Assembly: GCA_021734785.1 (NCBI GenBank)
Contig: JAIPIF010000002.1
Coordinates: forward strand, 124,001-188,000
Direction: 5' to 3'
Origin: Candidatus Altimarinota bacterium
GTDB lineage: Bacteria > Patescibacteriota > Gracilibacteria > UBA4473
DNA length: 64,000 nt
How positions within the stretch are numbered: position 1 is the first letter of the stretch; each line of letters opens with the position of its first letter. This document shows, in pieces, positions 39,600 through 59,174 of the stretch. The translations under genes were made by a program, and so were the position numbers. Below the pieces are notes generated by a model. The model worked only from the letters and a program-made list of their open reading frames with translations, searched no databases and was not told the origin of the DNA.

Positions 39600-39745
39600 A
39601 AAGAAAAGAAAAGAAACCCGACAGAGCCAGGGGTTTTCTTTGTGAGTGGCAGGCGCGGAAGGAATACTTCGGGCTTCGCCCTTCGTGACGTCGTCGCACA
39701 AAAAGAAAATGCCCTTCGGCAGGCTCAGGGCGCTTTCTTTTTTTA
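39600..39745. terminator. Two terminator-like hairpins in the 360-bp gap after DEAD-box gene start
   Basis: AAAGAAACCC and GGGTTTTCTTT (about 39609-39641), and AAAGAAA-TGCCCT with AGGGCGC-TTTCTTT (about 39701-39744), each with T runs. The second can end the tRNA-Trp transcript on the minus strand. The 39479-39837 gap holds no gene; it also has a 19-bp copy of the tRNA-Trp 3' end near 39648. Confidence 0.6.
39648..39667 (-). repeat. Fragment duplicating the 3' end of tRNA-Trp
   Basis: TGGCAGGCGCGGAAGGAAT here repeats 39838-39856, the CCA end and acceptor/T-stem part of tRNA-Trp. A further T-arm-like piece, TCGAACCCGGGTTCAATCCC, lies near 39758. Possible integration scar or repeat spread. Confidence 0.6.
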
Positions 39746-39837
39746 GTTCCTCGTATCGAACCCGGGTTCAATCCCTCCAAGTGCTTCGCACAATGTAAAA
39801 AAACGACTATGCCCGGTGGGCACACTCGCTTTTTTAC

Positions 39838-39911
39838 TGGCAGGCGCGGAAGGAATCGAACCCTCGTCCTCGGTTTTGGAGACCGATGTTCTGCCACTGA
39901 ACTACGCGCCT
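39838..39911 (-). tRNA. trnW: tRNA-Trp (CCA anticodon)
   Basis: Minus-strand cloverleaf: acceptor AGGCGCG / CGCGCCT with G73 and an encoded CCA, D-arm with AGTTCAGTGGCAGA, anticodon loop CTCCAAA (CCA, Trp), T-loop GGTTCGATTCC. The only Trp tRNA seen; TGA is a stop here, so no UCA anticodon is expected. The likely promoter is 126 nt upstream (40037-40064). Confidence 0.95.
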
Positions 39912-39979
39912 GCGTCGGCGTTAGCCGGTGCACACTCCGCTCCGATTTATCGGAGCTTCGTTGTTGGCTACGCTTCCTT

Positions 39980-40015
39980 TTCCTCCTCCCGCCAAGGCGG
40001 GACTCGGAGTGGTTT
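39980..40015. repeat. CCCGCC-AA-GGCGGG palindrome upstream of tRNA-Trp
   Basis: CTCCCGCCAAGGCGGGACTC lies between the tRNA-Trp gene and its probable promoter. The same type of palindrome occurs twice upstream of tRNA-Ile (near 46745 and 46865). Confidence 0.6.
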
Positions 40016-40103: not shown

Positions 40104-40196
40104 TTTTCATCGAGAGGTGGCGAGAGGTACAACTTTTTGACCCACCAGCAACCGCCCATCAGACAGGGAATGGTGCTCCACTTGTACGGGATGAAG
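40104..40196 (+). promoter_or_regulatory. SAM riboswitch (SAM-I/SAM-IV-like) of metK
   Basis: P1 forms between TTTTCATC (40104-40111) and GATGAAG (40190-40196). P2 pairs GGTGG (40116-40120) with CCACC (40142-40146). Then come the S-box hallmarks GCAACC (40148-40153) and GGTGCT (40172-40177), with P3 pairing ACC/GGT and CCC/GGG around an 8-nt loop, and a short P4. Upstream of metK, the expected target, and followed by a terminator, so SAM should switch transcription off. The P2 side is shorter than classic SAM-I, so I leave the subclass open. Confidence 0.8.
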
Positions 40197-40204
40197 TTCG
40201 ATCG

Positions 40205-40228
40205 AAAGTTGCATCAGCAACTTTTTTT
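40205..40228 (+). terminator. Attenuator hairpin of metK leader
   Basis: AAAGTTGC-ATCA-GCAACTTT perfect 8-bp stem followed by T's. A competing hairpin (GATG 40190-40193 with CATC 40212-40215, and TTCG with CGAA between) overlaps both the riboswitch P1 strand and the terminator, as expected of an antiterminator. Confidence 0.8.
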
Positions 40229-40237
40229 CTTCACACC

Positions 40238-40411
40238 ATGCAGACCTTTTTTTCCTCAGAATCAGTGACCGAAGGGCATCCGTCGTTGTCAATGACTTCA
40301 TTACTTCGTTCCGCGGTGCGGAACTGCGCTTATTGCGTCATCTCCTCCTCTCCCCAAAAAATCTTCGATTTTCCGGGGGCCCCAGTCTTATCTGGATTTA
40401 TTGCTTTCTAA
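40238..40411 (+). pseudogene. 5' remnant of a second metK, or leader ORF
   Basis: ATG right after the attenuator starts [15 protein letters not shown], matching 14 of the first 15 residues of MetK ([15 protein letters not shown]). The DNA differs at 7 of 45 positions, 6 of them synonymous. After codon 15 the match ends and unrelated sequence follows, including a TTCCGC-GGT-GCGGAA hairpin and a repeat-like GGGGGCCCC segment. The frame stays open to TAA at 40409-40411, 18 nt before the real metK ATG. It could be a truncated older metK or a translated leader peptide of 57 aa. Confidence 0.75.
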
Positions 40412-40429
40412 ACATTTAACTTTTACAAA

Positions 40430-41539
40430 ATGAAGACCTTTTTTTCGTCAGAGTCTGTAACCGAAGGACATCCAGATAAGGTGGCCGATCAGATTTCTGA
40501 CGCGATTCTCGATGCCATTCTTGCCCAGGATCCAAAGGCCCGCGTGGCCTGTGAAGTGCTGGTGCACACGGGACTGATTTTTATCACGGGAGAGATCACG
40601 ACGGACTGCTACGCGGATTTCAAAAAAATCGCCCGTGAAAAAGTGCTCGACATCGGGTACGATTCGGCGGATGTGTGCTTTGACGGTCGGACGTGCTCGG
40701 TGGTTTCTGCCATCGAGGAGCAGTCGCCCGACATTGCCCAGGGGGTGGACACCGGCGGTGCCGGAGATCAGGGACTCATGTTTGGGTATGCGTGCGAGGA
40801 GACTGATTCTCTCATGCCGCTGCCGATCACGCTTGCACACCAGCTGACCGATCGACTGACGGTTGTTCGAAAATCGGGAACACTGCCCTGGCTCCGTCCA
40901 GATGGAAAATCACAGGTGACGGTCGAATACTGTGGGGATCAGCCCAAACGTCTGGAGGCGGTGGTGCTCTCTGCGCAGCACGATCCCAACATTGCACTTA
41001 CCGATCTCAAAAAAGAACTCACCCAGCACGTGATCAAGCCGGTCTGCGGCAAATGGCTGGACGACAAGACGATCCTCCACATCAACCCCACCGGACGGTT
41101 TGTCATCGGCGGGCCGCAGGGAGACTGCGGGATGACCGGACGCAAAATCATCGTCGACACGTACGGCGGCTGGGGACGGCACGGGGGCGGTGCTTTCTCT
41201 GGCAAAGATCCCAGCAAAACCGACCGATCCGGGGCGTACGCGGCGCGTTGGGTTGCCAAGAGTTTGGTGGCGTCTGGTCTCGCCAAAAAATGCGAGGTAC
41301 AGCTGGCGTACGCCATCGGTGTGGCGGAGCCGGTGAGTGTGCACGTGGATAGTTTTGGCACCTCGAAACTTTCTCCATCGGAGCTCGAAAAACTTGTCCG
41401 CCAAAACTTTGATCTCACGCCAAGCGGCATCATCTCGGCACTCGACTTGCGTCGTCCCATTTACGCCGCGACGGCAGTGGGAGGGCATTTTGGACGGGAG
41501 GGATTTCCGTGGGAGCAGGTGCGGAAGATCGAAACTTGA
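40430..41539 (+). CDS. metK: S-adenosylmethionine synthase
   Basis: Makes SAM from methionine and ATP, cytoplasmic. 369 aa from [20 protein letters not shown]; then [43 protein letters not shown] (signature hexapeptide GAGDQG), [21 protein letters not shown], and the P-loop-like [23 protein letters not shown]. All three domains are complete. Transcribed behind the SAM riboswitch and metK remnant; no promoter or Shine-Dalgarno of its own is evident in TTTAACTTTTACAAA. Confidence 0.97.
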
Positions 41540-45039: not shown

Positions 45040-45049
45040 GGAAAGGGGA

Positions 45050-45301
45050 AAAGCTGAGAAGTTGAGAAGCAGGGAAGGAGGGAAAATAAAAATTACAAAT
45101 TACAGATTACAAATTACAAATGGGGAAAACCCCCCATCCCCCTTTGAAAAAGGGGGTGAAAAAGTTGAAAAGTGAGGAAGAAAAGAAGTTTTGAAGAAAA
45201 AAGAAGGAATTGGAGGGGCAAGGGATATCTTGCCCGTACAGAAAAACATTTTGACTCATAAAAAAGACGGCAGGATTGCTTCGTTCCTCGCAATGACAAG
45301 A
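45050..45301. repeat. Composite interspersed repeat, copy 1
   Basis: Order: AAGCTGAGAAGTTGAGAAGC, an A-rich part, ATTACAA heptads (about 45087-45120), then a hairpin CCCCCATCCCCCTTTGAAAA..GGGGG (45131-45156). Separately at 45216-45301 are GGGCAAGGGATATCTTGCCC (palindrome) and ATTGCTTCGTTCCTCGCAAT. Same order appears at 46403-46509 (first part) and 54089-54340 (both parts). The gap 45040-45318 holds no gene. Confidence 0.8.
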
Positions 45302-46252: not shown

Positions 46253-46636
46253 GTTTGAGATGGGTTATCGTCTGGCAGGTACGAGGTTGGTTTGAGACCT
46301 GCAGACAGAAAATGCGGGGGCGATTGTCGGTAAAAAGCGGGAAAAGTCAAATGTTTTTGGAGAGGAGAAAAGCTCAAAAGTTAAAAATATGAAAAGCGCA
46401 AAGGCTGAGAAGTTGAGAAGCAAGGAAGGAGGGAAAATAAAAATTACAAATTACAGATTACAAATTACAAATGGGCAAATCCCCCCATCCCCCTTTGAAA
46501 AAGGGGGAGAAAGTTGAGAAACCCTGAAGAAAGAAGGGGACGCAGATCTGCGTCTTATGCAAAAGTCAAAAAGCTCAAAAGCTTCGGAGGGCATTCTTCT
46601 TTCTTCAAGAGAATCCGTAATTTCTGTGGAAAAGAA
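46253..46636. other. Gene-free stretch: rplU leader and composite repeat copy 2
   Basis: 46253-46340 is the rplU upstream region. 46403-46509 is the second copy of the composite repeat (GGCTGAGAAGTTGAGAAGC, ATTACAA heptads, CCCCCATCCCCCTTTGAAAA hairpin). The rest is purine-rich with no open frame I can support. Confidence 0.7.
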
Positions 46637-46713
46637 TGGTGGGCAATCGAGGACTTGAACCTCGGACCTCGTCCTTATCAGAGACGCGCTCTAACCAGCT
46701 GAGCTAATTGCCC
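46637..46713 (-). tRNA. trnI: tRNA-Ile (GAT anticodon)
   Basis: Minus-strand cloverleaf: acceptor GGGCAAT / ATTGCCC, A73, encoded CCA; D-loop AGCTCAGCTGGTTAGA; anticodon loop CTGATAA (GAT, Ile); T-loop GGTTCAAGTCC. Probable promoter lies about 220 nt upstream at 46936-46963. Confidence 0.96.
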
Positions 46714-46739
46714 TCGTCGCTGGGTGATTTCATCCGTGG

Positions 46740-46885
46740 CTCTCCCGCCAAGGCGGGATCGCACTGGATTTCATCACCGCTCCTCTTTCCTCGCGAAGCA
46801 CCCGCTTCGCTCGGAGTTTCGCGGGGGCCCTAAAGGTTTCAGGTTGATTCCTTTCCCTCGTCCCGCCAGGGCGGGACTCCGCTCA
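46740..46885. repeat. CCCGCC/GGCGGG palindromes upstream of tRNA-Ile
   Basis: TCCCGCCAAGGCGGGATCG near 46744 and TCCCGCCAGGGCGGGACT near 46862, with a GCGAAGCACCCGCTTCGC hairpin between. The gap 46714-46959 has no gene. Confidence 0.6.
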
Positions 46886-58937: not shown

Positions 58938-59014
58938 GCCACCTTAGCTCAGCTGGCTAGAGCAGCTGTCTTGTAAACAGCAGGTCTCCGGTTCGAATCC
59001 GGAAGGTGGCTCCA
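58938..59014 (+). tRNA. trnT: tRNA-Thr (TGT anticodon)
   Basis: Cloverleaf: acceptor GCCACCT / AGGTGGC, T73, encoded CCA; D-arm AGCTCAGCTGGCTAGA; anticodon loop CTTGTAA (TGT, Thr); T-loop GGTTCGAATCC. Confidence 0.97.
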
Positions 59015-59017
59015 CGT

Positions 59018-59046
59018 CGGAACTCGGCTGCACGAGTTCCGTTTTT
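59018..59046 (+). terminator. Terminator of tRNA-Thr
   Basis: CGGAACTCG and CGAGTTCCG stem, loop GCTGCA region, T run; a second weaker hairpin TTTTTTGC-TTC-GCAAAAAA follows. Confidence 0.85.
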
Positions 59047-59174
59047 TGCTTCGCAAAAAAACTCCACAAGCTTGCTGGTTCCTCCTCTCTCCGCACAAAA
59101 CCTTCGGTTTTGTTTGGGGATTTTGCAGAATAAAAACTTGACATTTTTAATTAAAAGTTTTATGGATTTCCTTG

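Follow-up and report, generated by a model that had tools for sequence, protein, structure and literature searches.

Two metK starts separated by a dispersed CGTC-headed repeat behind a predicted SAM riboswitch in a Candidatus Altimarinota genome

How did metK come to have two starts behind one riboswitch, the first broken off at codon 15 and the second intact? This question is raised by a locus of Candidatus Altimarinota bacterium, and we present here a computational analysis of the locus and of its counterparts in related genomes. The window, meaning the whole stretch of DNA analyzed, is 64,000 nt long and corresponds to G000:C6:124001-188000, where G000 is a draft genome of 1.06 Mb in 9 contigs with a completeness of 76.82. 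The initial annotation of this DNA described a SAM riboswitch with an attenuator, a truncated metK copy that breaks off into unrelated sequence, and the true metK, and it proposed either that an older riboswitch-controlled metK had been replaced or that a translated leader peptide had evolved from it. Riboswitch, attenuator, and truncated copy are borne out below; replacement of metK is not. Instead, a dispersed repeat, here called element A, probably entered metK at codon 15 with duplication of its target, behind an ordinary terminating SAM riboswitch. The features are listed in Table 1.

Table 1. Features of the metK locus and of the tRNA-end copies of element A in the window
Feature	Position	Strand	Basis or detail
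SAM (S-box, SAM-I) riboswitch aptamer, predicted	40104..40197	+	RF00162, 44.1 bits (E 6.5e-9), all 108 model positions (1-108) matched
Intrinsic terminator of riboswitch, predicted	40204..40225	+	Stem of 9 pairs with a 4-nt loop and a T run
Left direct repeat, putative original metK start region, terminator T run to codon 15	40219..40281	+	63 nt, 78% identical to 40411-40473
Truncated metK start	40238..40281	+	44 nt, 14/15 residues as in metK
Upstream ORF, 57 codons, truncated metK start plus repeat	40238..40411	+	Stop ends 18 nt before metK ATG
Element A (CGTC-headed two-hairpin dispersed repeat) at metK	40281..40383	+	Model R1, 69.9 bits, G000:C6:164284-164383 (window 40284-40383)
Tail of putative inserted unit, 27 nt	40384..40410	+	Alike by eye in G012 and G018; bounded by right repeat
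Right direct repeat, putative second copy of start region, serving intact metK	40411..40473	+	Sequence comparison
Intact, native metK, 369 aa	40430..41539	+	PF00438 match, E 3e-43; tree
Element A copy 1 nt from 5′ end of tRNA-Trp (39838-39911, - strand)	39913..40009	+	Model match
Element A copy 1 nt from 5′ end of tRNA-Ile (46637-46713, - strand)	46715..46816	+	Model match
Element A copy directly past CCA of tRNA-Thr (58938-59014, + strand)	59015..59118	+	Model match

The riboswitch before metK of G000 is predicted to be of the SAM-I (S-box, RF00162) type and appears ordinary and native. A covariance-model search against Rfam matched RF00162 over its full length at a score 0.3 bit short of the curated gathering score (44.4), and positions 40104 to 40197 are therefore absent from a scan at gathering scores. 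Apart from this small deficit, the region shares with known SAM-I riboswitches the GCAACC and GGTGC motifs, a terminator, and its place before metK; it differs in that the intact metK start lies 192 nt downstream of the riboswitch-adjacent start. The terminator scan gave 2 terminator-like sites in 581 bases versus 0.8 in shuffles, and the competing fold predicted for positions 40188 to 40215, a candidate antiterminator, is weak (-2.2 kcal/mol). RF00162 was found before metK in 12 of the 14 family relatives having enough upstream DNA (45.9 to 59.2 bits in 11, and 43.7 bits in G008) and was not found there in the other two, G004 and G014. In the first comparison, it was present upstream of metK in 13 of 15 relatives' loci; the two without it are L018, which has 70 nt of upstream DNA, and L015, which lies outside the family. 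In S-box riboswitches, high SAM lets the aptamer form and the terminator end transcription, while at low SAM the polymerase continues. At the G000 locus, read-through at low SAM would yield a transcript bearing both metK starts, and the enzyme would be made from the second, downstream one.

The two starts are versions of one sequence. The direct repeats are identical at 49 of 63 positions with a spacing of 192, and the upstream match to the metK start scores 59, while shuffled upstream DNA scores at most 23 (30 shuffles); hence, the second start is not due to chance. Both the truncated copy and the 57-codon open frame ahead of metK were correctly recognized at the outset. Over codons 1 to 14, copy and gene differ at six positions, five of them synonymous, and the six of seven reported initially is obtained when the third base of codon 15, at the junction, is counted. 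The intact gene has the sole PF00438 match found in G000. In a 30-row MetK tree that includes 13 family members, the G000 protein groups with that of same-genus genome G001 (100/99) within a family clade (100/100). Each copy also shares peculiarities with its own gene (FFSSES in G000, MRTFF in G012, and MKTYF in G018). These shared peculiarities, the native riboswitch, and the tree together argue for local duplication. The metK genes of some class relatives of G000 contain several in-frame TGA codons, a trait pointing to the Gracilibacteria/Peregrinibacteria branch of the Patescibacteria. G012 and G018 bear one genus label, but their MetK proteins are unpaired in the tree.

The sequence after the truncated start, at first taken for unrelated, consists largely of a hairpin repeat dispersed through the genome. 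When the insert was compared with G000 by BLAST, further copies of its hairpin part were found. Element A is about 103 nt long plus a tail and has CGTC at its head, as do 24 of the 25 copies examined in the frame test described below. MAFFT was used to align 17 copies, 15 of them from G000, one from G012, and one from G018. RNAalifold placed 11 pairs on this alignment, 10 with a change on both sides in at least one sequence; the consensus is weak, as the stems are not all in register in the MAFFT alignment and the second hairpin is missing from it. Model R1 of the repeat has 107 positions, and single folds contain two hairpins. With 150 of 427 candidates scored, at least 29 R1 matches were found in G000 at an E value of ≤0.1, some of them tandem or overlapping.

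Most of these copies sit at tRNA gene ends. At least 18 of the G000 matches begin within 4 nt of the end of a tRNA match, on the CGTC side: 8 follow a tRNA 3′ end, seven of them with a gap of 0 and one with a gap of 1 when the CCA is counted, and 10 lie next to the 5′ ends of opposite-strand tRNAs. Element A thereby marks at least 18 of the 47 tRNAs of G000, where chance would give about 0.0005 per copy. The same placement is seen for 8 of the 13 listed matches in G001, G010, G012, and G021 (within 4 nt of a tRNA) and for 9 of the 13 matches away from metK that were inspected in G015, G016, G017, and G018. Copies were counted in 20 family genomes at an E value of ≤1e-4, and no more than 150 candidates were scored in each, so the counts are lower bounds: at least 26 in G000, 9 in G015, 8 in G012, 5 in G017, 4 in G018, 2 in G001, and 1 each in G010 and G016, with none among the matches listed in the other 12.

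Two kinds of enzyme were considered as movers of element A and rejected. No R1 match was found at nine loci around Y1 transposase domains, four of them in G000, or at four loci around paired or single tyrosine recombinase genes. Several other elements were seen near such genes and near tRNAs. At window positions 39638 to 39830 and in L064, L048, L058, L070, and L075, degenerate tRNA copies directly follow intact tRNA-Trp, -Ser, -Leu, and -Tyr genes; in these, 16 to 19 nt of the tRNA 3′ part recur after a block that often has a hairpin and a T-arm-like palindrome. A Y1 transposase gene at L212:932-1552 (G000:C6:400-3000) is flanked on both sides by AACCCGGGTTCTAGAACCCGGGTT, which is close to this T-arm palindrome, and the gene is a possible mover of the degenerate tRNA copies. 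The tRNA-Trp of G012 (L083) and tRNA-Gln of G000 (L055) have copies in which, by eye, arms are swapped for GC hairpins. Near tRNA-Ile, window positions 45042 to 45161 and 46393 to 46512 form a 120-nt direct repeat of another family (94% identical). At L209:1691-3483 (G000:C6), two tail-to-tail tyrosine recombinase genes soon after a tRNA gene, with a gene that looks RadC-like by eye beside them, likely belong to an integrated element; similar recombinase pairs occur at G000:C6:44524-45646 and in G008.

The metK arrangement, called a scar below, recurs in related genomes. MetK matches were present in 70 of 99 genomes, and 49 metK loci, the window included, were tested for a second start upstream; L018 was left out, its upstream DNA being too short. 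Truncated starts were found in four loci, those of G000, G012, G017, and G018, the last with two tandem units. The break falls after nt 44 in G000, G012, and G018 and after nt 27 in G017. At metK, R1 scores 73.9 bits in G012 and 70.6 and 68.9 bits in the two G018 units; the G017 insert has a partial R1 match (21.6 bits; E value, 0.003 with four loci searched) and is a similar, diverged case. The direct repeat of G000 (63 nt) has counterparts with 47 nt matched in G012 and 73 nt matched in G018; the upstream edge of element A is poorly defined in G012. A weak hit in L202, which looks like a riboswitch piece, and two weak hits in L003 were not counted as truncated starts. The nucleotide test is blind to decayed copies and did not report an older 13-nt start in G012. 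In that leader (L004:1149-1290), read by eye, ATGAGAACATATT, the first 13 nt of the metK start, is followed by another hairpin and probably marks an earlier scar of this type. The G017 leader (L009:1105-1233) has an extra insert with inverted ends, TAGAACCTTT...AAAGGTTCTA, between the riboswitch and the truncated metK start. The metK leader seems to be a hot spot for small inserts.

Scarred leaders are long. In eight family members without a scar, riboswitch and metK matches are 33 to 107 nt apart or, in G001, overlap by 7 nt, compared with 232, 403, 427, and 439 nt in the four scarred genomes. G008 is an exception, with its riboswitch 418 nt upstream of metK and neither a second metK start nor a repeat copy found in the spacer; distance by itself is therefore no sign of a scar. 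One frame is open over most of the G008 spacer (L190) and, judged by eye, would encode a small membrane protein.

The same anatomy occurs at two tRNA genes. In G017, a truncated tRNA-Met copy, the repeat, and the full gene follow one another with a 62-nt direct repeat, and in G015, the full tRNA-Phe gene is preceded by a tandem of two truncated copies, with the repeat after each of them, and the 108 nt matched there are partly the tail of the preceding unit. G015 has the repeat and no metK scar. At the plain tRNA ends examined, no target-type direct repeat was found around element A copies; other direct-repeat hits there reflect similarity among neighboring tRNA genes or spacers. In the MetK tree, each scarred genome pairs with a scar-free one (G001, G002, G003, and G011), so that the scar is absent from the nearest genomes. 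In G011, which pairs with G017, there is one strong tRNA-Met match with rearranged surroundings. Among 15 family genomes tested, the scar is present in four of the five with at least four repeat copies versus none of the other 10 (P = 0.004), a threshold picked after the data were seen; with the cut at one copy, the figures are four of seven versus none of eight (P = 0.026). The zero counts for G002, G003, G013, and G014 rest on 150 of 204 to 448 candidates scored.

Several other histories could have produced two starts. An assembly artifact joining two strains would suit an incomplete draft in nine contigs, but four separate genomes have a truncated metK start and two tRNA genes show the same anatomy, which makes it exceedingly improbable. 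The replacement proposed initially, in which an old riboswitch-controlled metK gave way to the metK of another organism, would explain why the two starts differ mainly by synonymous changes, the pattern expected of genes that had both been functional. It is very unlikely nonetheless, being contradicted by the MetK tree, by lineage-specific residues common to copy and gene, and by a riboswitch that is common in relatives, most of which lack the copy. The order of events might also have been reversed, with tandem duplication of the metK start region coming first and the redundant first copy then being eroded by the repeat or by an adjacent deletion. Such a course would leave nearly identical anatomy; tandem arrays do exist (the metK units of G018 and the tRNA-Phe units of G015), and degenerate tRNA copies adjoin intact tRNAs. 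We consider it possible although not favored, as unrelated targets have direct repeats of similar length (at metK, 63 and 73 nt; at tRNA-Met, 62 nt) and the genomes with a scar tend to be those that carry the repeat.

A further proposal concerns function and is compatible with insertion. The truncated start may be a functional leader ORF, retained because translation begins at its native initiation region, with ribosomes finishing there restarting on metK, which would add a translational layer to the riboswitch; this corresponds to the leader peptide first suggested, and it is a tentative reading, less likely than not. Across the codons shared by five copies and their genes, 15 of 16 differences are synonymous. 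The stop codon of the upstream frame overlaps the following ATG (as ATGA) in G012 and in each unit of G018; it ends 18 nt before that ATG in G000 but 69 nt before it in G017. The synonymous bias would have a P value of 0.005 to 0.008 if an unconstrained copy had taken half of the changes and of 0.09 to 0.11 if its share had been 30%. Recent duplication or gene conversion would help to explain the bias as well, and the pair of copies in G018 does not count as two independent cases. Past codon 15 the frame is not conserved as protein, changes being mostly nonsynonymous (4 synonymous and 24 not between G018 copy 1 and G012), and 45 of the 49 metK loci have no such start. The open frame is itself weak proof of coding: of 24 repeat copies located elsewhere, 20 are likewise open in this phase. 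Those 24 were drawn from the 29 matches by leaving out the metK copy, three tandem or overlapping copies, and one not headed by CGTC.

Insertion with target duplication would have proceeded as follows. A noncoding, REP/MITE-like, CGTC-headed double-hairpin unit (about 103 nt plus the 27-nt tail) would have inserted at codon 15 of metK and duplicated about 63 nt of its target, comprising the terminator tail, the 5′ leader, and the first 15 codons. The original start would have been left next to the riboswitch as the truncated copy, on the CGTC side, and the duplicated start downstream of the element would drive the intact gene. We infer from the comparisons above that the repeat moves and that the duplication came together with the insertion. 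Because no target-type repeat was found around the plain tRNA-end copies examined, insertion would not always duplicate its target. The common break at nt 44 in G000, G012, and G018 may reflect shared descent with losses, that is, one old event and not repeated insertion. More speculatively, and with considerable doubt, element A could be a small, structured mobile element of a new class, found in this family of bacteria with small genomes. It would target gene starts as well as tRNA ends and duplicate some 60 to 70 nt at the site of insertion, which would let essential genes survive a hit, and the start left behind the riboswitch would now be a leader ORF whose translation hands ribosomes on to metK. 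If insertion is correct, a noncoding repeat has entered an essential riboswitch-controlled gene without killing it, by supplying a second start. The locus would then offer a recurring, concrete example of the origin of leader ORFs and of riboswitches set far from their genes, and it points to a repeat family strictly placed at tRNA ends.

We recognized no report of the metK arrangement among abstracts, judged by their openings, that dealt with duplicated metK, with long target duplications, with RAYTs in relation to tRNAs, or with repeats at the tRNA genes of such bacteria. Several known systems resemble parts of it. Gene-restoring integrative elements, such as SXT in prfC and islands in tRNA genes, leave a truncated gene fragment on one side and the complete gene on the other. 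The metK locus shares this outcome, but its unit is about 190 nt long, noncoding, and without an integrase inside it, and its intact start is copied from the locus itself, not brought in from elsewhere. Mobile GC hairpins are known in mitochondria. These and the Rickettsia palindromic elements (RPEs), which are named in PMC3733652, are likewise short hairpins entering genes; RPEs, however, are described as inserts within one ORF, whereas at metK the gene start is present twice, with the first copy cut off. In RAYT-type systems, the repeat flanks a Y1 transposase gene; among the nine Y1 loci, none was flanked by element A, and one Y1 gene bears another palindrome. Another likeness is to the CGTC-tagged REPs of Di Nocera et al. 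2013 (PMC3733652). In the main text of that paper, the string "duplicat" is absent, and "tRNA" is mentioned in connection with tRNA-enzyme genes. As described there, CGTC-tagged REPs are dispersed and have CGTC at one end of a hairpin, as element A does at one end of its palindrome, and no dedicated transposase was found for them, just as none is linked to element A. They are 20 to 40 bp long, with a stem of 8 to 9 bp that starts with A-T pairs and a CCA tail; element A is about 103 nt long, with two hairpins and no such stem. Unlike the REPs described in that text, element A lies at tRNA gene ends and is flanked by long direct repeats when inside a gene.
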